Origin: Methylococcales bacterium
GTDB lineage: Bacteria; Pseudomonadota; Gammaproteobacteria; Methylococcales; Methylomonadaceae
Assembly: GCA_026398895.1 (NCBI GenBank)
Contig: JAPLRZ010000042.1
Coordinates: 1-64,000, forward strand
Reading direction: 5' to 3'
DNA: 64,000 nt
Part shown: one piece after another, positions 2,663 through 12,195 of the stretch
Layout: each line of letters opens with the position of its first letter
Numbering within the stretch: the stretch's first letter is position 1
Made by a program: the position numbers and the translations under genes
Notes under the pieces: generated by a model
Databases searched by the model: none
What the model was told of the DNA's origin: nothing
What the model saw: the letters and a program-made list of their open reading frames with translations, nothing else

Positions 2663-2762
2663 CGTCATTTCGGCAGGGATTGCCGAAATCCAGAAGCCAC
2701 GGATGGCATACACTCAAACACATCCTTGTGACTGGATTCCAGCATCCCTGCTGGAATGACGG
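2663..2762. repeat. Dispersed ~100-bp repeat with inverted ends, copy A
   Basis: The element starts CGTCATTTCGGCAGGGAT and ends CTGGAATGACGG. Its reverse complement matches the copy at 5581-5694 over most of its length, including 'ATGCTGGAATCCAGTCACA', 'GGATGTGTT' and 'GCCATCC.TGGCTTCTGGATT'. The ends are inverted 'CGTCATT...AATGACG'. The two copies are in opposite orientation and enclose the second FGS target, TR, RT and HRDC gene. Confidence 0.8.
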
Positions 2763-2852: not shown

Positions 2853-3761
2853 TCATTTGTAATCGTCCTGCCCGCTCGCATCGTCACCACTGACCGTCTG
2901 CGCTACCGCTTGCCTGTCCGTGGCGACGGTGCGGGCTTGCTTAACTGCCTCTGTTTGACCTAGGGCAAAACGGAAGCCGAAGTAGTAGGAGCGATTATCA
3001 GGCGTGCCGTAGTAACGGAAAGCAGAACGTGCGTCCCTCGCATAGTAGTGCCAAGTACCGCCGCGCAACACCCGCGACGTGCCATCAGTTGCACCTGTGG
3101 GATTAGTGACTGGTTCACTCGAATAGTCGCCATATCGATCATCGCACCATTCCCAAACATTGCCGTGCATTTCATACAAGCCCCAATCGTTTGGTGGTAG
3201 GGATTTAACAGGCACGGTTTTTTTACGATACAAGCCTTTTTCAGCGTTGTTATAAGGGTAATTTCCATCATAATTCACTTGTTCAGGGGTGATGTTGTCG
3301 CCAAAAGAAAACGGCGTTGTTGTTCCAGCTCTACAGGCATATTCCCATTCGGCTTCACTGGGTAAATAGGCGTTTAAATCGGGTAACTTGTTAAGTTCTA
3401 TTAAGAATTTTTGTATATCATCCCAACTGACTTGTTCAACAGGATTATTTAAGTCTTCTTTAAAACTAGCTGGATTTTCACCCATGACTGCTATCCATAA
3501 GGCTTGGGTACAAGCGGACTCAGCTAACCAGTAACCCTGAGTGAGTGTGACTTTATGTTGTGTTTCTCTGTCGAATCTTTCTGGTTCATCAGACGGTGAA
3601 CCCATTAAAAACCAGCCCGCCTCTATCCAACGAAAAGTTTGTTTAACCTCCTTAACAGTTAATTCCATCCATAAGCCAAACTCATCTTCACCAAAGGCAG
3701 TTGCCCACGAGGCAGGAAAAGGATGCGGGAAGTTGATGTTGGGTTTTAGATTAGGCGACAT
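2853..3761 (-). CDS. DGR target 1: FGE-sulfatase (C-type lectin fold) variable protein
   Basis: The 302-aa protein is almost entirely one formylglycine-generating-enzyme/SUMF-type domain. Landmarks in order are 'FRWIEAGWFLMGSP' (~44-57), 'VTLTQGYWLA' (~70-79), 'NNPVEQVSWDDIQ' (~105-117), 'LPSEAEWEYACRAGT' (~132-146), 'WGLYEMHGNVWEWCDD' (~192-207) and 'RVLRGGTWHYYARDARSA' then 'FGFRFALGQ' at residues ~230-270. Residues 227-268 are the DGR variable repeat VR1. About 35 residues follow the VR. It closely resembles the last third of the 904-aa protein at 5727-8441, without that protein's N-terminal domains. There is no signal peptide, so it should be cytoplasmic. In DGR biology this fold displays the hypervariable ligand-binding surface, and catalysis is not expected. 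Confidence 0.9.
   Translation of the reverse strand: MSPNLKPNINFPHPFPASWATAFGEDEFGLWMELTVKEVKQTFRWIEAGWFLMGSPSDEPERFDRETQHKVTLTQGYWLAESACTQALWIAVMGENPASFKEDLNNPVEQVSWDDIQKFLIELNKLPDLNAYLPSEAEWEYACRAGTTTPFSFGDNITPEQVNYDGNYPYNNAEKGLYRKKTVPVKSLPPNDWGLYEMHGNVWEWCDDRYGDYSSEPVTNPTGATDGTSRVLRGGTWHYYARDARSAFRYYGTPDNRSYYFGFRFALGQTEAVKQARTVATDRQAVAQTVSGDDASGQDDYK
2874..2936 (-). promoter_or_regulatory. Inverted repeat downstream of VR1
   Basis: The arms at 2874-2890 and 2920-2936 pair at 14 of 17 positions around a 29-base spacer. They begin 23 bp beyond VR1 in the coding direction. The same structure follows VR2 (5778-5846), and nothing similar follows the template repeat. In studied DGRs a DNA hairpin just after the VR promotes retrohoming, and I infer the same role here. 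Confidence 0.65.
2960..3081 (-). repeat. DGR variable repeat VR1
   Basis: These 122 bp align without gaps to the template repeat at 3908-4029. There are 18 differences. Seventeen fall on adenines of the template (coding strand), and the exception is a T-to-A change that makes Ser into Thr at the 'RGG[S/T]W' position. Template Asn codons became His, Tyr, Asp, Phe, Gly and Ser. The last 21 bases (to CCCTAG) and the first ~25 are unchanged. Confidence 0.95.
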
Positions 3762-3767
3762 AAAAAG

Positions 3768-3896
3768 CTACTCTGTTAGGTCGCCACTTTGATAGGCGTT
3801 CGTTATCACTACTAGCGTATCAAAGGGCAGTTGGTTTTTGCCATTGAACAGATATTCAACGGACAGGATGATGATTGGGTCAAACAGTGTGTTCAT
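3768..3896 (-). CDS. Small ORF between template repeat and FGS gene
   Basis: A 42-codon frame runs from the ATG at 3896 to the TAG at 3768-3770. It begins MNTLFDPIIILSVEYLF and ends 'NAYQSGDLTE'. The ATG directly follows the TGA that closes the frame running through the template repeat (TGAATG), and the stop lies 6 bp before the FGS start. No good ribosome-binding site is visible and I do not recognise the sequence. It could be a real linker peptide, the tail of an eroded gene, or chance. Confidence 0.3.
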   Translation of the reverse strand: MNTLFDPIIILSVEYLFNGKNQLPFDTLVVITNAYQSGDLTE

Positions 3897-3907
3897 TCAT
3901 GTATGAG

Positions 3908-4029
3908 CTAGGGCAAAACGGAAGCCGATGTTGTTGTTGCGATTATCAGGCGTGTTGTTGTTACGGTTAGCAGAACGTGTGTTCCTTGCATTGTTGTTCC
4001 AAGAACCGCCGCGCAACACCCGCGACGTG
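3908..4029 (-). ncRNA. DGR template repeat (TR)
   Basis: This 122-bp non-coding template lies 10 bp after the RT stop codon. Read on the minus strand it would encode [15 protein letters not shown]-type sequence with twelve Asn codons, nearly all AAC/AAT, the hallmark of a DGR template in which adenines are mutated during cDNA synthesis. It has 33 adenines, of which 23 are changed in one or both variable repeats. At the 3' (IMH-like) end the identity with both VRs stops at CCCTAG. The next ten bases agree at only six positions, while the two VRs agree with each other, as expected for IMH* versus IMH. It is probably transcribed from the HRDC-RT operon. Confidence 0.95.
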
Positions 4030-4039
4030 TTTTTAATCA

Positions 4040-5059
4040 TCACCCTGTGTCTGTTGTATAACAAGACGGATGTAATTTCAAGTTGTGTTTGCGCCAAGCC
4101 AGACTATCGGTGTGTAGAGTAACCGCATGAACGGCATCATAGCCTTGTTGTAATTTAAGGCTGTTGATTTCACCTGTTTGCCACAAGTATTCCCAACGCT
4201 GGCGTAGTTGTCGATAACGGCGTTTTTTGCGCAGGGTGAGTCTGAAGGTGGCAGGTAAAATGCGATAGCCGCAATACGTCACGCCGCGTTCACTGCGATT
4301 GATTTGAACATTGGCTTTAAGTTGTAACAATCGCTGGGTTTCAAGATAATAGCTTAATTGGTTTAAAACGTGTTTAGCGGTGGTTTTGTCATCACACCAC
4401 CACAAAGTATCATCCATGTAACGCACCACCGCCCCGACTTGCGAATGGTTAGATAAAAAACGGTCGGCACCGTCTAAATAATAATTGGCAAAATGTTGTG
4501 AAGTCAGTGAACCAATCGGTAAGCCTTTGTTAGCTGCGGTGTGATAAGAATCTATGATACGCCAGAGCAGGTTTAAAAACCCCTCGCTTTTAAAGCGTTT
4601 GCTCAATAGTTCAAATAAGATCGCGTGGTCTATGGAGGGAAAATAACGCTGTATATCGACTTTAACGAACCATGAAAAACGCCGTAAATTTTTTTGTACT
4701 TGCTGCACGGCTTTATGTACGCCTTTGTTTGGACGACAGGCATAAGTATGAGTCATTAAGCTACGTTCAAAGACGGGTTCAGCTAAATTCATGATGGCAT
4801 GATGCAATACACGGTCTTCAAAACAGGCGGCGGTAATTAAACGCAATTTAGGGTCGTGAATGTAAAATTGTCGGTAACGTCCTGCTGGGACATTGCCTTG
4901 TAAAATGGCATGACTGAGTTGTTGTAAGCTGGTATCTAACTGCGTGATGAAGTGCTGCACGTCAGGGCGATGCTGTTTACCTTTCGCTGCTTTCCAAGTC
5001 GCGGTGAGCAAATTGTCATAATCAGCAAGTTCGCTTAAGGTAATCAACTGGCGTTTCAT
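4040..5059 (-). CDS. DGR reverse transcriptase
   Basis: The 339-aa protein has the standard size for DGR RTs and no maturase or endonuclease domain. The catalytic Asp of motif A is in '[15 protein letters not shown]' (D135). Motif 4 is '[16 protein letters not shown]' (GSLTSQ 183-188), the SQ form typical of DGR RTs, where group II intron RTs have QG. The polymerase site is '[11 protein letters not shown]' (YMDD 214-217). It overlaps the HRDC gene by 4 bp and is followed 10 bp later by the TR. It copies the TR RNA with adenine-specific errors to give cDNA that replaces the VRs. All core motifs look intact. Confidence 0.95.
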
Positions 5060-5514
5060 GATTTGGCTAAGCTGGTTTTTAGCAGATTTAAAAAGCTTGC
5101 GCCGTATTTTTCTAATCTCGCTTTGCCTATGCCTTCAATACTGGCGAGTTCCGTTTGTGTCAGAGTGCGGCGTGTCACCATTTCAGCCAGTTGTTCATTG
5201 GTGAATAAGGCATAAGCGGGTACGCCTTCCTGTTCTGCCAGCGTTTTACGCAGAGTGCGTAATTCAGCATACACGGCAAAATCCTGTTCGTTAAGAACTT
5301 CTCGATAATCAACAGAAGGACGTTTATTCGCGGCGGTGTTTGGTTTTTCCGTACTGTCTATGGTGGTGACACAAATAGACCAAAAGCTGTTATCGCCTAG
5401 GGCAACAAATTGTTTTTCCACTGCCAATATACGATGTTGCCCACAGAAAGTATTTAAGGCTTCCTGTCCAGAGTCTGGGTTTTGGGCGTGTATGTTGAAA
5501 AAATGGTATTTCAT
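5056..5514 (-). CDS. DGR accessory protein with HRDC domain
   Basis: The product is 152 aa. The N-terminal ~60 residues (AVEKQFVALGDNSFWSICV) are not a family I can name. A linker follows, then an HRDC domain at ~78-150: 'LRTLRKTLAEQEGVPAYALFTNEQLAEMV..' and 'LASIEGIGKARLEKYGASFL'. HRDC proteins stand in for Avd as the second conserved gene in many DGRs and are thought to act with the RT in nucleic-acid handling. The 4-bp overlap with the RT indicates translational coupling. Confidence 0.85.
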   Translation of the reverse strand: MKYHFFNIHAQNPDSGQEALNTFCGQHRILAVEKQFVALGDNSFWSICVTTIDSTEKPNTAANKRPSVDYREVLNEQDFAVYAELRTLRKTLAEQEGVPAYALFTNEQLAEMVTRRTLTQTELASIEGIGKARLEKYGASFLNLLKTSLAKS

Positions 5515-5580: not shown

Positions 5581-5694
5581 CGTCATTCCAGCATGGATGC
5601 TGGAATCCAGTCACAGGGATGTGTTCGAGTGTAAGCCATCCTTGGCTTCTGGATTGCGGCGAACCCTCGCTATGCTCTCCCTGCCGCAATGACG
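5581..5694. repeat. Dispersed ~100-bp repeat with inverted ends, copy B
   Basis: This is the inverted counterpart of the copy at 2663-2762. It starts CGTCATTCCAGCATGGATG, ends CTGCCGCAATGACG and has ~14 bp extra near its right part. It fills the gap between the 904-aa target gene and the HRDC gene. It has no coding capacity, and its mobile status is unknown (MITE-like). Confidence 0.8.
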
Positions 5695-5726: not shown

Positions 5727-8441
5727 TTATTTGAGCTTTATCTTATCAAGGATTCGGCTAAATAAATTCTTGCTATCCAAGCCCACATCGTCACCACTGA
5801 CGGGCTGCGCTACCGCTTGCCTGTCCGTGGTGACGGCGCGGGCTTGCTTAACTGCCTCTGTTTGACCTAGGGCAAAACGGAAGCCGAAGCCGTTGCCGCG
5901 ATCATCAGGCGTGCAGTAGTAACGGAGAGCAGAACGTGTGAGCCTAGCAATGCTGCGCCAAGAACCGCCGCGCAACACCCGCGACGTGCCTTCAGTTGCG
6001 CCTTTAGGATTCGTGACAGATTCATTCGGATAGTCACCAAACCAATCATTACACCATTCCAAAACATTACCGTGCATTTCGTACAAGCCCCAATCATTCG
6101 GTGGCAAGGATTTTACCGCAACGGTTTTGCCGCGATCCAGTCCTTTTTCAGCATTGTTATAAGGACGACTACCATCGTAATTAACTTGTTCAGGCGTGAT
6201 ATTGTCACCAAAAGAAAACGGCGTTGTTTTTTTTGCTCCTGCTCTACAGGCGTATTCCCATTCGGCTTCGCTGGGTAAATAGGCGTTTAAATCGGGTATC
6301 AATTGATTAAGTTTACTTAAAAAGTCTTGTACATCATCCCAACTGACTTGCTCAACGGGGTTGTTTTTATCCTCTTTAAAACGGGCTGGATTATCGCCCA
6401 TCACCGCTTGCCATAAGGCTTGCGTGCAAGCTGTATCCGCTAACCAGTAGCCTTGTGTCAGTGTCACTTGATGCTGTATTTCATCGTCATAGCGTTCTGG
6501 TTCATCAGGCGGCGAACCCATTAAGAAACTACCAGACTCTATCCAGCGAAAACGCTGGCTGACTTTGTTAATGGTTAAATCGGCATAGATACCATAGTCA
6601 TCTTTACCAAATGGCGGTTTCCATGCCCAATCACTGTGTTCAGTGATACGCCAAGGCAGGGTGTGGTGTTTGCCTCGCCAGTTGACACTGACAAACAAAC
6701 CTTGACTATCCCGCCACAGACGACTTGCCCAATCGGGTTTTTTAATGGCTTTTAGTTGCAGTTGTTCGGTTTCTGTTTCAATGTTGACAGTTTCAGCTTC
6801 ATTTAGAGTGAAAACCTGCCCATCTTGTATCAGTTGTTGTTTTCCATCAGCCTTGCGTTGTACGGGTGTAAATTTTGTTGACAGCGTGGCAATGCTTAAC
6901 GGATGCGCGTTTGTTTGCACACAACTGTGTCCTTGTCCTTGTTGCGCGATGTGCCACTGTATCTGTGTTTTTGTATTAGGATCACTTTTTTCAAGTTCAT
7001 ACAGATCATAACCTTGATTCAGTAGCTGTTGGCGTTGGGTTTCGTTATGACTGAGGGCGGCAATGCGGTGTAATAACGGGCTTATCTTTGTGTCTAAAAT
7101 GCTGTTTGGGGTTAGGGCAATCACGGTTTGCGCTTGGGCGTGTAACGCACTGTTAGTCTGTTCAGTGTTTAGCCGTGTGACTAGGTATTGATAATAGCGT
7201 TCGATGTTGTCATCCAATGGCGTATTCCGCTGCATGGCGTGTTTATTTAAACCTTCCAAACATTTTAAACCCTGAAAAGCGTTGGCATGGTGTTCATTCA
7301 CAATTTGCCAAAAGTCTTTGGTATCGTTTGGGTAATATGAACGATAGCTTTCAGCCGTTTCCTTAGGAAAATAAATGCCTAAGCCGTTATCCGTCACATC
7401 GGGATGTTGCCATATGAAATGTTCGAGTTCACTACCGCCCCACTGTAATTCTTTGCGTAAGCGGCGCAATAAAGCGGTATCAATCAAGGGTAATACCGAT
7501 AACAGCGCGAAAATTTCGCGTCTTTTGGTTTCCGACAGTTCGGGCAGTGTAAAGCCTTTTTGATACGGATGACGGCGTACAGGTTGGCTATCGTTTAAGG
7601 GATTGGGTTTAAGGTGTTGACACAGGTTTACATCATTTGGCGTGTTTCTGCTGGGGCTGAGTGTCAACATCGGTGCGCTGCGGGTTTGTAGGCGTTTACT
7701 TAAGTATCGCCAATGTTTTGCGTTTAAGTCACTTAAAATTAACAGCGCGACATCATCGGCGGGTTGTTGCCATATCTGCCATGAATCATTAGATCGTGCA
7801 GGATATGGCAGACAATACGCCTGTTCATGAGTCATGCTGTCTTCATCAAAACGTATCGCGCTAACGGCTTCTTTTCCAAGGCGTTTTTTCAGTTCATCGA
7901 CGATAAATTCAAAATCGACCCAATAGGGTTCTAAATCTAATCGAGCATCGACAATGATTTGTATGCGTTGTGACCAAACCTGTCTGGGCAAATAGGGCAA
8001 ACGCTTTAAGGCTTTGCCTTTTGCCAGTTGTGAACTTAAACGGCTTAAGTCTAGGTTGTTACCTTCGCGCTTTTGCCCTAAGCCGTTGTGCAGTAATGGA
8101 ATTAATCGTGCCATTGTGAGTAATGGCTCTGCGGCTTTGAACCGATAACTGCCTTCTGTGGTTTCTGGCGGTGCGCCTGAAAAGGTATCAGGTTCGGGGG
8201 TAACGTCTGGTTTGGTTTTTGATTGACTGATGACGATGAATAAGGCGGGTGGGCGTTTTGGAGTTTGTTCTGCGTTGTCGTCTGCTGTTGTTGAAACTGT
8301 CAGTTCAGTGGTTGAGCTAAAGCCACGTTCAGCAATATAGTTTATTGGTTCATGTTCATAACCAAATAACTGCGCTATTTTTTCTAAAGTTTGGTCTGAT
8401 TCACCCGCCGCGTGTATCAGTGCTAAACGTCCCCATGCCAT
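5727..8441 (-). CDS. DGR target 2: vWA-like plus variable FGE-sulfatase domain protein
   Basis: The product is 904 aa. The N-terminal half holds a region resembling a degenerate von Willebrand A fold: 'RIQIIVDARLDLEPYW' (~160-176, where DxSxS would be) and 'VALLILSDLNAKHW' (~229-242). A long helical region (~290-520) and a ~70-residue linker follow. The C-terminal ~290 residues form an FGS domain: 'RFRWIESGSFLMGSP', 'WGLYEMHGNVLEWCNDW', 'LRGGSWRSIARLTRSA', 'FGFRFALGQ'. VR2 covers residues 818-859. It has no signal peptide. It sits in one minus-strand array after MoxR and the TumE/TumA-like pair, starting 27 bp past the latter. vWA plus MoxR plus FGS is a known architecture of NTP-dependent conflict systems, with FGS as the diversified sensor. 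That reading is an inference here. Confidence 0.85.
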   Translation of the reverse strand: MAWGRLALIHAAGESDQTLEKIAQLFGYEHEPINYIAERGFSSTTELTVSTTADDNAEQTPKRPPALFIVISQSKTKPDVTPEPDTFSGAPPETTEGSYRFKAAEPLLTMARLIPLLHNGLGQKREGNNLDLSRLSSQLAKGKALKRLPYLPRQVWSQRIQIIVDARLDLEPYWVDFEFIVDELKKRLGKEAVSAIRFDEDSMTHEQAYCLPYPARSNDSWQIWQQPADDVALLILSDLNAKHWRYLSKRLQTRSAPMLTLSPSRNTPNDVNLCQHLKPNPLNDSQPVRRHPYQKGFTLPELSETKRREIFALLSVLPLIDTALLRRLRKELQWGGSELEHFIWQHPDVTDNGLGIYFPKETAESYRSYYPNDTKDFWQIVNEHHANAFQGLKCLEGLNKHAMQRNTPLDDNIERYYQYLVTRLNTEQTNSALHAQAQTVIALTPNSILDTKISPLLHRIAALSHNETQRQQLLNQGYDLYELEKSDPNTKTQIQWHIAQQGQGHSCVQTNAHPLSIATLSTKFTPVQRKADGKQQLIQDGQVFTLNEAETVNIETETEQLQLKAIKKPDWASRLWRDSQGLFVSVNWRGKHHTLPWRITEHSDWAWKPPFGKDDYGIYADLTINKVSQRFRWIESGSFLMGSPPDEPERYDDEIQHQVTLTQGYWLADTACTQALWQAVMGDNPARFKEDKNNPVEQVSWDDVQDFLSKLNQLIPDLNAYLPSEAEWEYACRAGAKKTTPFSFGDNITPEQVNYDGSRPYNNAEKGLDRGKTVAVKSLPPNDWGLYEMHGNVLEWCNDWFGDYPNESVTNPKGATEGTSRVLRGGSWRSIARLTRSALRYYCTPDDRGNGFGFRFALGQTEAVKQARAVTTDRQAVAQPVSGDDVGLDSKNLFSRILDKIKLK
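5778..5846 (-). promoter_or_regulatory. Inverted repeat downstream of VR2
   Basis: The arms at 5778-5797 and 5827-5846 pair at 17 of 20 positions (arm CAAGCCC.C..CGTCACCAC), with a 29-base spacer. The structure starts 20 bp after VR2 in the coding direction and corresponds to the one after VR1. It is the expected place for the hairpin that marks a DGR target site. Confidence 0.7.
5867..5988 (-). repeat. DGR variable repeat VR2
   Basis: It aligns without gaps to the 122-bp template with 19 differences, every one at a template adenine. Asn positions became Arg, Ser, Ile, Leu, Tyr, Cys, Asp and Gly. The flanking constant blocks are identical to both the TR and VR1. Confidence 0.96.
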
Positions 8442-8468: not shown

Positions 8469-8810
8469 TCATGCTGCTTTCAACATAAAATCAACATGAA
8501 TCGCACTGTAAGGAAAAATTACGCCATTTTCAGTTGTTTCCAGTAAGCCCGACACGCATAAAATCTCAATGTCGTTCTGCACCGTGTTTATATCACGATT
8601 GATTTGTTGAGCGATTTCATTAATTGTCATATCACCAGTCCCTGTCATTATTTTTAGAATTTGCCAGCGTTCCAGTGTGAGTGTTTTCCAGAATTGTTCA
8701 TCTGATTCAAAATTGATACGCGCTCCTTGCTTTTCTCCCGTTTCCCATGCTTTTAGAAAACGGGCAGAAAGTTCTTGTGGATGACTAATACCGATAGTGA
8801 CTTCATTCAT
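8469..8810 (-). CDS. TumA-like antitoxin, winged-helix DNA-binding protein
   Basis: The product is 113 aa. The sequence 'FWKTLTLERWQILKIMTGTGDMTINEIAQQINRD' then 'VQNDIEILCVSGLLE' and 'VIFPYSAIHVDFMLKAA' fits the HVO_A0114-type MarR/winged-helix family that partners TumE toxins. The recognition helix is around residues 65-85. Its start overlaps the toxin gene by 8 bp and the vWA-FGS gene starts 27 bp after its stop. It probably binds its own promoter and neutralises the toxin, or has been recruited as a regulator of the array. Confidence 0.75.
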   Translation of the reverse strand: MNEVTIGISHPQELSARFLKAWETGEKQGARINFESDEQFWKTLTLERWQILKIMTGTGDMTINEIAQQINRDINTVQNDIEILCVSGLLETTENGVIFPYSAIHVDFMLKAA

Positions 8811-9093
8811 GTTGTGTTCTCCAAAGTTCTACATCGTGCCAAAAATCAGCTAATAAATGTTGTGGCGATTCAAATAAATACGTCATTTCAACATCGCCAA
8901 TATGCTTATGATCGCCTTTTCCTGCTTCATTGTCATAACGCAATACACAAACACCTTCGACAACTAACGCCAGCCGATATTTGAAATGATGACTGCTACC
9001 CGTTACTGGTGTAGGCACAGACCACAAGATTAATTCAACAAATCTATTTTCACCCTGTATGAGTCGTTCTTTAAAAAGCAGTTCGGCTTTCAT
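8803..9093 (-). CDS. TumE-family toxin-like protein (DUF6516)
   Basis: The product is 96 aa. The conserved run 'HHFKYRLALVV', 'VLRYDNEAGKGDHKH' and 'HLLADFWHDV' matches the TumE/DUF6516 pattern (YDNE.GKGDHRH..G). It overlaps MoxR by 4 bp (ATGA) and the antitoxin-like gene by 8 bp, so expression is coupled to the conflict array. The TumE biochemical activity is not something I can state. Finding the pair inside a MoxR/DGR array is unusual. Confidence 0.75.
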   Translation of the reverse strand: MKAELLFKERLIQGENRFVELILWSVPTPVTGSSHHFKYRLALVVEGVCVLRYDNEAGKGDHKHIGDVEMTYLFESPQHLLADFWHDVELWRTQHE

Positions 9094-10097
9094 GTGTCCA
9101 ATTCTTTTTTCAACGCATAATCTTTAATCTTGGTTAATCGTTGTTTTTGTTCCTCTAGGTCTTCTAATTTACTTAAGGCACTGAGTAAATCAATGTATTC
9201 GGCTAATCCAGGTTTATAACGTGTGCAGTTTTTTCTATCGATCAATAATAACTTAGCCGCCTCTAAGTAAATATCTATTACTTTATCTTCTTTATCCTTA
9301 TCCTTATCCTTACCAACGTAAATTTTGTCACCAAAATGTAATTCACCACGTTGTTTTAACCACAGTTCGTCTTCTTTCATTTTCAGGGTATGCACAAAAC
9401 AACGGCGCAAAAAGGCAGGGGGTAATTCGCGTTCTTCATTGGTGGTGATAATGACTAATAATTTTTCAGGTTTTGCAGTAATGGTTTGGTTAATATACGG
9501 TACAGTAAATTTATAATCGCCCAAGGTTTCTAACAAGCCATTGGGTAAATCGGGTTCAGCTTTATCTATTTCATCAATCAATAACACCACGCCGTTTTCA
9601 TAAGCGTTATTATTATTTTCAGGTTTGGCTTTTAAACGAGTTCGGCATTGCTTATGTTGCCGCTCCGCGCTTTCCCAATCGTATGCCCACCAAAATGCAC
9701 TCGGTGATAAGAATTTCCCCGCTTTTAATTCTTTTAAATTACATTCCACTTTACTCATGGCTTGCGCTTCACCCAAACGCCCAATGGCATCAAAATGCCA
9801 ATGTAAATCCGATAATTCAGTATTGCCGCGTATCACTTCACTGACAAACGCCCAACCCAATTGATGAGCGATGGCTTTTGCCATTTGTGATTTACCTGTA
9901 CCCGTTTTGCCGCGTACTAATAAGGGTCTTCCTGCTGCGTAGGCTGCCCATAGTGCATAACAATCGGCTTCATCAAGAATATGATAGAGGTCTTTCTCAC
10001 TATTTTCGATGTAATACTGCTTTTTTTCATCGGCAGTAGTGGTAAATTTTTCGGCGGTGAAGTGTTCAAATTTGAGATTATTTTTGGGATTATTCAT
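9090..10097 (-). CDS. MoxR-type AAA+ ATPase
   Basis: The product is 335 aa. Walker A is GKTGTGKS (63-70), Walker B is 'VVLLIDEIDKA' (170-180), sensor 1 is 'LLVIITTNEERELPPAFLRRC' and the Arg finger is in 'PPAFLRR'. It carries the MoxR-style insertion between the Walker motifs. Near residue 260 a short imperfect hexanucleotide repeat yields KDKDKDKEDK. MoxR ATPases act with vWA proteins as ATP-driven chaperones or remodellers. The vWA-like partner here is the 904-aa protein. It is the first gene after a 141-bp gap from the protease gene and overlaps the TumE-like gene. Confidence 0.88.
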   Translation of the reverse strand: MNNPKNNLKFEHFTAEKFTTTADEKKQYYIENSEKDLYHILDEADCYALWAAYAAGRPLLVRGKTGTGKSQMAKAIAHQLGWAFVSEVIRGNTELSDLHWHFDAIGRLGEAQAMSKVECNLKELKAGKFLSPSAFWWAYDWESAERQHKQCRTRLKAKPENNNNAYENGVVLLIDEIDKAEPDLPNGLLETLGDYKFTVPYINQTITAKPEKLLVIITTNEERELPPAFLRRCFVHTLKMKEDELWLKQRGELHFGDKIYVGKDKDKDKEDKVIDIYLEAAKLLLIDRKNCTRYKPGLAEYIDLLSALSKLEDLEEQKQRLTKIKDYALKKELDT

Positions 10098-10166
10098 GTT
10101 GTTTAATGGGTTTAATTATTTGATAATGGCTTAGTCTGTTATTTAAACGGAATATCAAGTTACTGG

Positions 10167-10229
10167 TCTGGAGTTCAATAGCTTTAGCTATTGGCGATTC
10201 GCAAAAAGCTAAAGCTTTTTGACTCCAGA
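10167..10229. repeat. Palindromic repeat between protease and MoxR genes
   Basis: The outer arms TCTGGAGT / ACTCCAGA enclose two smaller hairpins (ATAGCTTTAGCTAT and AAAAGCTAAAGCTTTT). The same family is found at 38969-39028. It may act as an RNA processing or termination hairpin within the array. Confidence 0.6.
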
Positions 10230-10238
10230 TTTAACCCA

Positions 10239-11852
10239 TCACTCAATCATTTTTAGCAATTCATCAAGTGATGCAAGTACCACCTTTTCGTCTTCTGTAC
10301 AGGGTTTTTCTTGCTGATCTGATTTATTTATCTCGTAACAAATAAATTTTAAATAGTTTGCTAGCTCTTGTTTATTGTCTTTAAACCATGGTGTTTTATT
10401 TAATAAATCGAGATAGATTTTATTAACCACATAATAAACTAATTTTCCTTGATTAATTCCAAGCAAGGCTTTTGCTTTGGCTTTTATATCTCTAAGTAAA
10501 TCCTCTTTAGAGTTTTTAATGTCTTTATCTTCAATATGTTGTCGTCCCCATAAATCTTTATAAATAGGGATTAATAATTGTTCATCTATAGCCACTCCAT
10601 TACCATCTAAAACAAGAATTTCTTTCTTTTCTTTATTTCTACCTCTATACACGGATGTATAGGGTTTAGGATAAGATTCTTCTTTTTTTGATTTATCAGA
10701 AATAGATTTTTGTGTTTTATTTAAATCATATTCTGATTTATCAGTGTTATTACATTCTAAAGTATATCTAGCAGGTTGCAGCGCGTAACGTGAAATAATA
10801 GTTTCAAAATATTCTAATATTTCTAAATTAAATTCTGTTATTGCTTGTTGCATCTTATGTTTATTCTGAAACCACCAAGTCGAATCAATACTATTAAGCA
10901 TTAACCAACCTGCTATTTCTTGCATATCATCTAATTTTTTAGGTTGATATTCTTGCAATATCCTTATTAAAGACGCAATAGATTCTGTAGTAGATTGTTT
11001 CGTTAAACAATCAGCAATAGACTGATAATTTTTTTCTGCATTATTAGATAGTCCAACACTATCCACTAAGTCATCTAAATCGAAATTTCTTTTAAGTAAT
11101 TTTTCAATACCCGCTTTAATGGCTTCATGCAGGTCTTGTTTTTGTTGATCTATAGTTTGTTGTTCTGTAAGCGGTGGTTTTATGGCTTCGCAAAAATCTG
11201 GGCAATGTTCTTTTACCCAAGGAATAGAAACAGCATAAAAATAACTTTTCACCGTATCATAAGTTTTTATTATGACGGCTACTAATTCATTTTTATAGAA
11301 AACAGGTGAGCCTGAAAGTCCGCCCCAACCATTTTCTTCTGGAAAGAAAGTTGGATTAAGTTGAACTGATGAATGTAGTATCAAAATATCATCGCCTCCT
11401 GTTTCTGTTAAACGCTTCAATGGAAAACTAAGCTGTTCTCTTTGAAAATCAGCTACTTTTCCCGCTAACGGAAAACCTAGCGTATTACTCTCTTCATTTA
11501 ATGGCGGAGGGTAATTGGCTAATTGCACAAGAGGTATTACATTTAAAAACTCAGGACAGCGAATAACAGCTAAATCAATATCTTCATTATCTGGACATAT
11601 TATGTCTTGACTGGAAAAATATAATCCATTTTTAAAAATATAAACAAGGTTATTATTTTGTTTTTTTGGTATTCCGTTAATATCTCTTTCAGGAAAAACC
11701 AGTTTTAATTCGGTACTGATACTATTGCCAGACAATATATTATGTTTTGCAGTTAAAATTAATCCGTTGTTTATAAAATAGCCAGTGCCGATGCACCAAT
11801 CATTAGCTTCATCTTTTGAATAAATTTGAACTATCCATTGGGCATCCAACAT
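10239..11852 (-). CDS. Trypsin-like serine protease with C-terminal effector-associated region
   Basis: The product is 537 aa with no signal peptide. Residues 1-215 form a chymotrypsin-fold protease with an apparently complete triad: His37 in 'LILTAKHNIL', Asp93 in 'EDIDLAVIRC' and Ser180 in 'GWGGLSGSPVF'. Residues ~235-330 are helical ('LHEAIKAGIEKLLKRNFDLDDL') and look like an effector-associated adaptor domain. The remaining ~200 residues are Lys/Asn-rich and unassigned. It is preceded by the trypco2 gene 16 bp upstream. Cytosolic trypsin domains with trypco partners are established components of vWA/MoxR-type conflict systems, where the protease is the effector. Base composition is lower in GC than in the flanking genes. 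Confidence 0.85.
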   Translation of the reverse strand: MLDAQWIVQIYSKDEANDWCIGTGYFINNGLILTAKHNILSGNSISTELKLVFPERDINGIPKKQNNNLVYIFKNGLYFSSQDIICPDNEDIDLAVIRCPEFLNVIPLVQLANYPPPLNEESNTLGFPLAGKVADFQREQLSFPLKRLTETGGDDILILHSSVQLNPTFFPEENGWGGLSGSPVFYKNELVAVIIKTYDTVKSYFYAVSIPWVKEHCPDFCEAIKPPLTEQQTIDQQKQDLHEAIKAGIEKLLKRNFDLDDLVDSVGLSNNAEKNYQSIADCLTKQSTTESIASLIRILQEYQPKKLDDMQEIAGWLMLNSIDSTWWFQNKHKMQQAITEFNLEILEYFETIISRYALQPARYTLECNNTDKSEYDLNKTQKSISDKSKKEESYPKPYTSVYRGRNKEKKEILVLDGNGVAIDEQLLIPIYKDLWGRQHIEDKDIKNSKEDLLRDIKAKAKALLGINQGKLVYYVVNKIYLDLLNKTPWFKDNKQELANYLKFICYEINKSDQQEKPCTEDEKVVLASLDELLKMIE

Positions 11853-11868
11853 AACTGTTCCTTATAAA

Positions 11869-12195
11869 CTAGGCTTTGCCTTTTATAGTTAATGCCCGAG
11901 TTGTTTTACTACCATCTGCATTTTCAATGACTTCGACAGCTTCCAAACTCAATTTAATTTTTTGTTTAGTCGCATTTTTATAGTGTCCACCTGCTTCTGC
12001 ATTTACATCAACGACACCGAATCTAATTTTAAACCCACCTTTGCCGTCACCTGCTATTTCAACAACGGTTTCCAATTCAACTTCTACATTGCTGACATTA
12101 AAGCGTATTTTTTTATCTTCGCCTTCTTGTTGTGCGGTAATCAGTTCCTGACGTAATGCTATGATGACATCGGCGAGTTCGAGTGTGTCTGTCAT
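11869..12195 (-). CDS. Trypco2-domain protein (trypsin co-occurring)
   Basis: The product is 108 aa. 'LELADVIIALRQELITAQQEGEDKKIRFNVSNVEVELE' followed by 'GGFKIRFGVVDVNAEA' and 'TKQKIKLSLEAV' matches the trypco2 family, small beta-rich proteins found next to trypsin-like effectors in conflict systems. A good Shine-Dalgarno (GGAGAAAG) precedes the ATG. It is the first gene of the DGR-associated array. The partner role with the protease is family knowledge, and its precise action is unknown. Confidence 0.82.
   Translation of the reverse strand: MTDTLELADVIIALRQELITAQQEGEDKKIRFNVSNVEVELETVVEIAGDGKGGFKIRFGVVDVNAEAGGHYKNATKQKIKLSLEAVEVIENADGSKTTRALTIKGKA

Follow-up and report, generated by a model that had tools for sequence, protein, structure and literature searches.

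How does a retroelement that overwrites parts of its target genes leave its own template intact? The question is raised by a locus on the minus strand of the window, the 64,000-nucleotide (64-kb) stretch of Methylococcales DNA analyzed here. The locus shows a diversity-generating retroelement (DGR) layout, with a reverse transcriptase (RT), an HRDC accessory gene, a template (TR), and two FGE-type target genes containing the rewritten repeats (VRs); all parts of it given below are on the minus strand. The RT gene (4040-5059) matches PF00078 (1.3e-17), and the best phage match of its product is Brt of BPP-1 (36% identity). An HRDC-domain accessory protein (5056-5514; PF00570, 4.9e-18) stands in the place of Avd. 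The TR (3900-4029) has adenine-specific mismatches to four VRs. Two VRs are in the window: VR1 (2952-3081), where 17 of the 20 mismatches fall at TR adenines, and VR2 (5859-5988), where 19 of 21 do. VR1 belongs to a target gene with an FGE-sulfatase domain (2853-3761; PF03781, 2.1e-42). The VR2 target gene (5727-8441; PF03781, 1.6e-43) encodes 904 aa, with a large N-terminal part and an FGE-sulfatase domain of the C-type lectin fold at its end. Having a DGR-type RT, adenine-specific TR/VR pairs, and an accessory gene, the element is a DGR as judged from its sequence. The adjoining genes (8469-12195, minus strand) encode an HTH protein, a TumE-like toxin, a MoxR-type AAA ATPase, a trypsin-like protein, and a Trypco2 protein, a set that resembles the conflict-system neighborhoods of PMC7159879. 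Two MITE-like elements (2675-2761 and 5581-5667), 91% identical and in opposite orientation, lie downstream of target genes, each at a distance of 60-92 bp.

The initial annotation had described inverted repeats after VR1 and VR2 and none after the TR, and had read this as the difference between a target (IMH plus hairpin) and a protected template (IMH*). We folded the 101 nt after each repeat as DNA and calculated z scores against 200 dinucleotide shuffles. Both inverted repeats were confirmed: the VR2 flank folded with -28.4 kcal/mol (z -6.27; 0 of 200 shuffles equal) and the VR1 flank with -22.8 kcal/mol (z -3.92; 1 of 200 equal), while the TR flank showed no significant fold (-7.1 kcal/mol, z -0.14). 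When folded as RNA, the three flanks had z scores of -8.0 (VR2), -4.3 (VR1), and 0.0 (TR). Among approximately 3,200 overlapping 70-nt minus-strand DNA folds in the 64 kb, the VR2 hairpin ranked 1st and the VR1 region 12th. The VR2 hairpin (5778-5846) can be extended to 28-nt arms (5819-5846 and 5778-5805) that are 82% complementary and separated by a 13-nt gap; the VR1 hairpin spans approximately 2874-2936, and each is located within the ORF of its target gene. The spacings originally given, 20 bp after VR2 and 23 bp after VR1, hold if counted from CCCTAG, but from the end of the TR/VR homology the VR2 hairpin begins after only about 12 bp. After the TR, only a VR-type hairpin is missing; an AT-rich 9-bp stem-loop does exist there, which is insignificant by folding and sits within a conserved structured RNA (see below).

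Both hairpins share the apical core GGACAGGCAAGCGGTAGCGCnGnCnGTCA (5798-5826 after VR2 and 2891-2919 after VR1), which includes GCGGTAGC (5809-5816 and 2902-2909, respectively). The latter can form a GC-GGTA-GC loop compatible with GRNA, but nearest-neighbor energies favor GCG-GTAG-CGC by 3 kcal/mol. VR1 and VR2 are 86% identical over 300 nt including the hairpin. They are thus recent relatives in this region, so that their mutual resemblance alone proves little, and remote VRs and other species weigh more. A whole-genome search revealed two such remote VRs, VR3 and VR4, on the contigs G000:C53 and G000:C41. They are also adenine-specific, with 12 of 14 and 18 of 21 mismatches at TR adenines. 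The hairpin is present after all four VRs of the genome and not after the TR. At VR3 and VR4 the ORF stops 6 nt past the VR and the hairpin is non-coding, whereas the VR1 and VR2 hairpins are coding. Since the same hairpin is found outside coding sequence, conservation at the protein level cannot account for it. Outside the four VRs, the genome contained no match to the hairpin sequence longer than 31 nt.

Stem covariation was analyzed in a set of six VRs, four from this genome and two from a sister DGR (L066; RT 79% identical), which align without gaps around the core. The core, GGACAGGCAAGCGGTAGCGC..GTCA, is near-invariant in all of them, and the arms vary. In the hairpin structure, 95.2% of the cells are standard pairs and 11 of the 28 pairs were changed on both sides; neither figure was reached in any of 500 shuffles. 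When the partner was shifted by 1-3 columns as a slide control, 24-52% of the cells were paired and only 1-2 pairs were double-changed. The two hairpins of L066 have an identical apical core, and 7 of their 20 outer pairs changed on both sides, with none lost. The initial annotation had named arms not conserved in relatives, and equal hairpins after TRs, as signs against a target mark. The sequence of the arms is indeed not conserved, but their pairing is. Judging from these comparisons, stem pairing is under selection, and the stem appears to matter as structure and not as sequence. A stem kept as structure and a loop kept as sequence is also the pattern seen in BPP-1 mutagenesis. In L066, the common core carries different, near-perfectly paired outer stems, suggesting stem replacement or templated correction. 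Because divergent stems misalign, a gapped alignment of paralogous VR flanks across all loci showed no more than a slight excess of paired double changes (107 of 236), and it was replaced by the core-anchored comparison. Two G-A mismatches flanking a 3-bp GAC/GTC step, a motif noticed in the window, recurred only in L066 and L067 and were set aside as a feature of a local clade.

We scanned bacterial genomes with an RT alignment and obtained 80 loci, of which 79 encode an HRDC accessory and none Avd. Counting that of the window, 71 DGRs had TR/VR pairs, mostly with two local VRs each; they form 54 clusters at 75% RT identity. Seven phyla are represented: Pseudomonadota, Planctomycetota, Thermodesulfobacteriota, Myxococcota, Acidobacteriota, Verrucomicrobiota, and Gemmatimonadota. 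The median folding z score was -2.6 for VR flanks (n = 132; 41% below -3) vs. -0.8 for TR flanks (n = 71; none below -3), and thus hairpins equal to those of VRs were not found after TRs. At some VRs, for example in L068, L131, and L132, the folding signal is weak or absent. 

The loop is conserved in sequence and in strand. Perfect stems of at least 5 bp in the 150 nt after VRs enclosed a GGA loop 82 times and its reverse complement never. The heptamer GCGGAGC was present in 94 of 130 VR flanks, in 0 of 71 TR flanks, and in 3 of 129 upstream control stretches; counted together with GCGGTAGC, the ratio of sense to antisense occurrences was 162:2. With one element taken per cluster (n = 54), either motif was found after VRs only in 45 clusters, after the TR only in none, and in neither place in 9 (sign test, 6e-14). 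The density of GGA hairpins after VRs was 66 times that in the rest of the same loci. The putative GGTA loop belongs to the subclade of the window DGR and L066, which lies inside the HRDC clade where GGA dominates. C-GNA-G loops are cited as forming DNA mini-hairpins of unusual stability (Yoshizawa et al. 1997, as cited in PMC6479982). The reverse-complement loops lack such stability, and the fold should therefore favor the sense strand. C-GNNA-G tetraloops are similarly stable.

The arrangement of the hairpins varies within the family. Nine loci, mostly from Accumulibacter and relatives (L069, L074, L082, L083, L098, L099, L106, L108, and L109), have 2-4 short tandem GGA-loop hairpins after most VRs in place of one long hairpin. 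In Thiothrix DGRs, GGA-loop hairpins also occur approximately 10-45 nt upstream of the VR start (L089 near 6202, 9622, and 9650; L092 near 6202 and 9040), so that VRs are flanked on both sides. In L076, the hairpins in the downstream flanks of two VRs (512-660 and 3245-3390) are mutually inverted, as if the stem-loop had been flipped.

TR and VRs also differ by one base. They were first described as diverging right after CCCTAG. One base does differ there, being C in the TR (3907; IMH* type) and G in both VR1 (2959) and VR2 (5866; IMH type), but TR and VRs still agree at 6 of the next 7 bases before the similarity stops. In the family, the base after AG was C in all 65 scored TRs, and among 117 scored VRs it was G in 74, T in 42, A in 1, and C in 0. 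These counts are limited to repeats that fit the search pattern; the remainder was judged by eye, and most of it obeys the C vs. G/T rule, with the TR of L129 breaking it and L139 being ambiguous. Because the difference sits in otherwise identical sequence in nearly all elements, it suggests a role of its own. The proposed distinction between target and template is supported, and its IMH/IMH* part narrows to a single base, constant throughout the family.

Directly 3' of the TR lies a structured RNA element (3780-3911), whose model scored 98 bits here and which shows covariation in relatives. In an alignment of 25 sequences, 19 of the 21 consensus pairs of this approximately 130-nt RNA had compensatory double changes. 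The RNA model matched directly after the TR in all searched HRDC-type loci outside the model-building set, and had no match after VRs, in two remote-VR loci, or in five Avd-type loci. There was one match per HRDC-type locus except for two in L137, where the second copy (4279-4415) possibly marks a second template. No Rfam family scored above threshold for this RNA. The distantly similar RT-14 (RF02921) aligned with it end to end at 30.2 bits, below the gathering score of 48.1, and did not match the relatives L094 and L091. By its position, we take the TR-flanking RNA to be a possible counterpart of the RNA that BPP-1 needs for priming.

Very probably, the hairpins serve an HRDC-type DGR as its cis-acting target mark, and the TR would be spared by its C base together with the missing hairpin. 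The nine of 54 clusters without the heptamer are a counterpoint. A rather unlikely variant accepts the hairpin as a DGR target mark but holds that it and the base difference only mark the end of VR homology, the TR being protected by its structured RNA-coding flank or by TR transcription. Every TR does have such a flank, and the missing TR hairpin could be a side effect of the flank being occupied. However, the C vs. G/T base lies within otherwise identical sequence, and in BPP-1 the few differences between IMH and IMH* determine directionality (PMC5006420).

It is quite improbable that the hairpins act as RNA, that is, as terminators, attenuators, or stabilizers of the mRNA 3' ends of target genes. 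The flanks do fold even more strongly as RNA than as DNA (see above), and in some relatives the hairpin follows the stop codon. But neither window hairpin has a terminator-like match, both are inside an ORF, and in L105, L112, L119, and L123 the reading frame continues for more than 1 kb beyond the hairpin. Moreover, terminators need no GGA loop on the sense strand and have no reason to accompany VRs but not other genes. The hairpins may have a second role in RNA. Their chance presence as mobile palindromic repeats of the REP or MITE-like kind is very improbable. True MITE-like repeats do lie near the VRs of the window (2675-2761 and 5581-5667), such repeats have been reported in Thiohalocapsa DGR loci (PMC10907252), and several relatives have GGA hairpins in a row; against this stand the confinement of the hairpin sequence to the four VRs of its genome (other matches at most 31 nt), the 66-fold enrichment after VRs, and stems that differ between VRs of one genome. 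Scarcely credible is a hairpin that arose as a side effect, either because the 3' end of the target gene was recently duplicated or because a C-terminal protein tail is conserved. This would fit the VR1/VR2 identity across two coding hairpins but not the retention of the hairpin after the stop codon at VR3 and VR4, the compensatory changes that keep pairing while the sequence changes (with alignment artefacts excluded by the slide control), or the unrelated stems in other species.

The target-mark reading can be compared with phage elements. In BPP-1, both the structure of the stem and the loop are required for homing, and long stem insertions or a larger loop abolish activity (Guo et al. 2011, PMC3240598). 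In E. coli, BPP-1 homing is reduced by deletion of the stem-loop, and a target is preferred when the lagging template is the strand to which the cDNA is complementary (PMC12875486). As a positive control, our script recovered the 8-bp stem with a GAAA loop at +4 of BPP-1. Of 80 viral contigs whose RTs are related, 73 have an Avd gene and 4 an HRDC gene. Phage VR hairpins are short and have GRNA tetraloops (39 of 50 loops; reverse complement, 0), which confirms and widens the GRNA rule of Guo et al. GRNA was found at 43 of 68 Avd VRs vs. 5 of 131 HRDC VRs, and the GGA triloop at 1 of 68 vs. 64 of 131. Accessory type and loop type are strongly associated by counts (Fisher tests, 6e-14 and 2e-20), but the accessory changes only once on the RT tree. 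This amounts to one independent event at a single deep split, a correlation that does not prove cause.

The hairpins of the window share with BPP-1 the place just 3' of the VR, the absence after the TR, and the IMH/IMH* difference, and they fit the BPP-1-type position, in which an inverted repeat lies 4-34 bp 3' of the VR and none after the TR. They differ in the stem, which in BPP-1 and phages has 7-10 perfect GC-rich base pairs and in the window approximately 28 pairs broken by mismatches. Since BPP-1 does not tolerate long stem insertions or a larger loop, the long stem cannot act in exactly the same way. Furthermore, the phage hairpins are usually non-coding, with a 4-nt GRNA loop and Avd, whereas the window hairpin is coding at two of four VRs and accompanied by HRDC, and most relatives have the 3-nt GGA loop. 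One possible, still tentative reading is that there are two target codes that track the accessory protein: a short stem with a GRNA tetraloop for Avd, and for HRDC long stems that evolve fast and carry a GGA triloop (or GGTA), together with a one-base C vs. G/T switch between template and target. The RT-accessory complex would read a mini-hairpin of the sense strand, with homing on one exposed strand. If this is true, a joint swap of loop and accessory would swap target specificity.

Several features have parallels in other DGRs. Like the window element, the Treponema denticola DGR (PMC4891356) has an HRDC gene overlapping the RT gene, remote VRs, and IMH-like ends with few differences; it differs by its lipoprotein targets, and the text of that paper contains no hairpin or stem. 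The nanoarchaeal AvpA DGR (PMC5006420) shares a hairpin or cruciform in the coding sequence after the VR, but it is archaeal, has an Avd-like accessory, and its hairpin is short and said to encode five disordered residues. The DGRs of Thiohalocapsa PB-PSB1 and the cyanobacterial FGE DGRs (PMC10907252, PMC7517822) share FGE/C-type-lectin targets, several and also remote VRs, and nearby MITE-like repeats. In these multi-target FGE DGRs, cruciforms were proposed as features of remote targets; as far as searched, neither paper describes these hairpins, a loop rule, or a discriminator base. Thus, a target hairpin is known in principle from BPP-1, coding hairpins from an archaeal DGR, and the HRDC accessory from Treponema. 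The long stem, the GGA-triloop class, the single-base discriminator, and the link between accessory and loop appear new: the literature searched, which did not extend to the large survey of DGRs by Wu et al. (2018, NAR) that may already contain some of these points, held no description of a GGA-triloop class, long covarying stems, a one-base discriminator, or an accessory-loop link, and no homing experiment with an HRDC-type DGR was found in it.

Starting from the anatomy, the TR/VR specificity, the selected pairing, the conserved loop, and the strand asymmetry, we infer a role of the hairpins in homing, with a strand-opening step and recognition by the RT or the HRDC protein. The DGR RNA would comprise the TR and the structured 3' element and would be reverse transcribed with errors at adenines, and the cDNA, complementary to the sense strand, would replace the VR. 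A recipient would be defined by an IMH end (AG followed by G or T) and, within a few tens of bases, a hairpin whose conserved apical loop, GC-GGA-GC or in the window GC-GGTA-GC, is on the sense strand. While single-stranded, for example when templating lagging-strand synthesis, the sense strand would fold into the hairpin, and a GNA- or GNNA-type loop would make this fold favorable on the sense strand only. The hairpin may keep the 3' end of the VR open for the cDNA, be bound by the RT-HRDC complex, or both. A TR with the C discriminator and without such a hairpin would not be overwritten. Because the sense strand would be the pairing partner of the cDNA, loop stability and the lagging-template preference may be parts of one mechanism.

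So far, the distinction between template and target and the role of the hairpin in DGRs have been known from one phage element. The rule found across 54 RT clusters amounts to a minimal target signature, AG[G/T]TC followed by a hairpin whose sense-strand loop is C-GGA-G or C-GGTA-G. The structured RNA after the TR would merit a family of its own. The signature covers a large class of bacterial DGRs that diversify putative immune sensors, allows remote target genes to be discovered from sequence, and points to a strand-specific step on single-stranded DNA.
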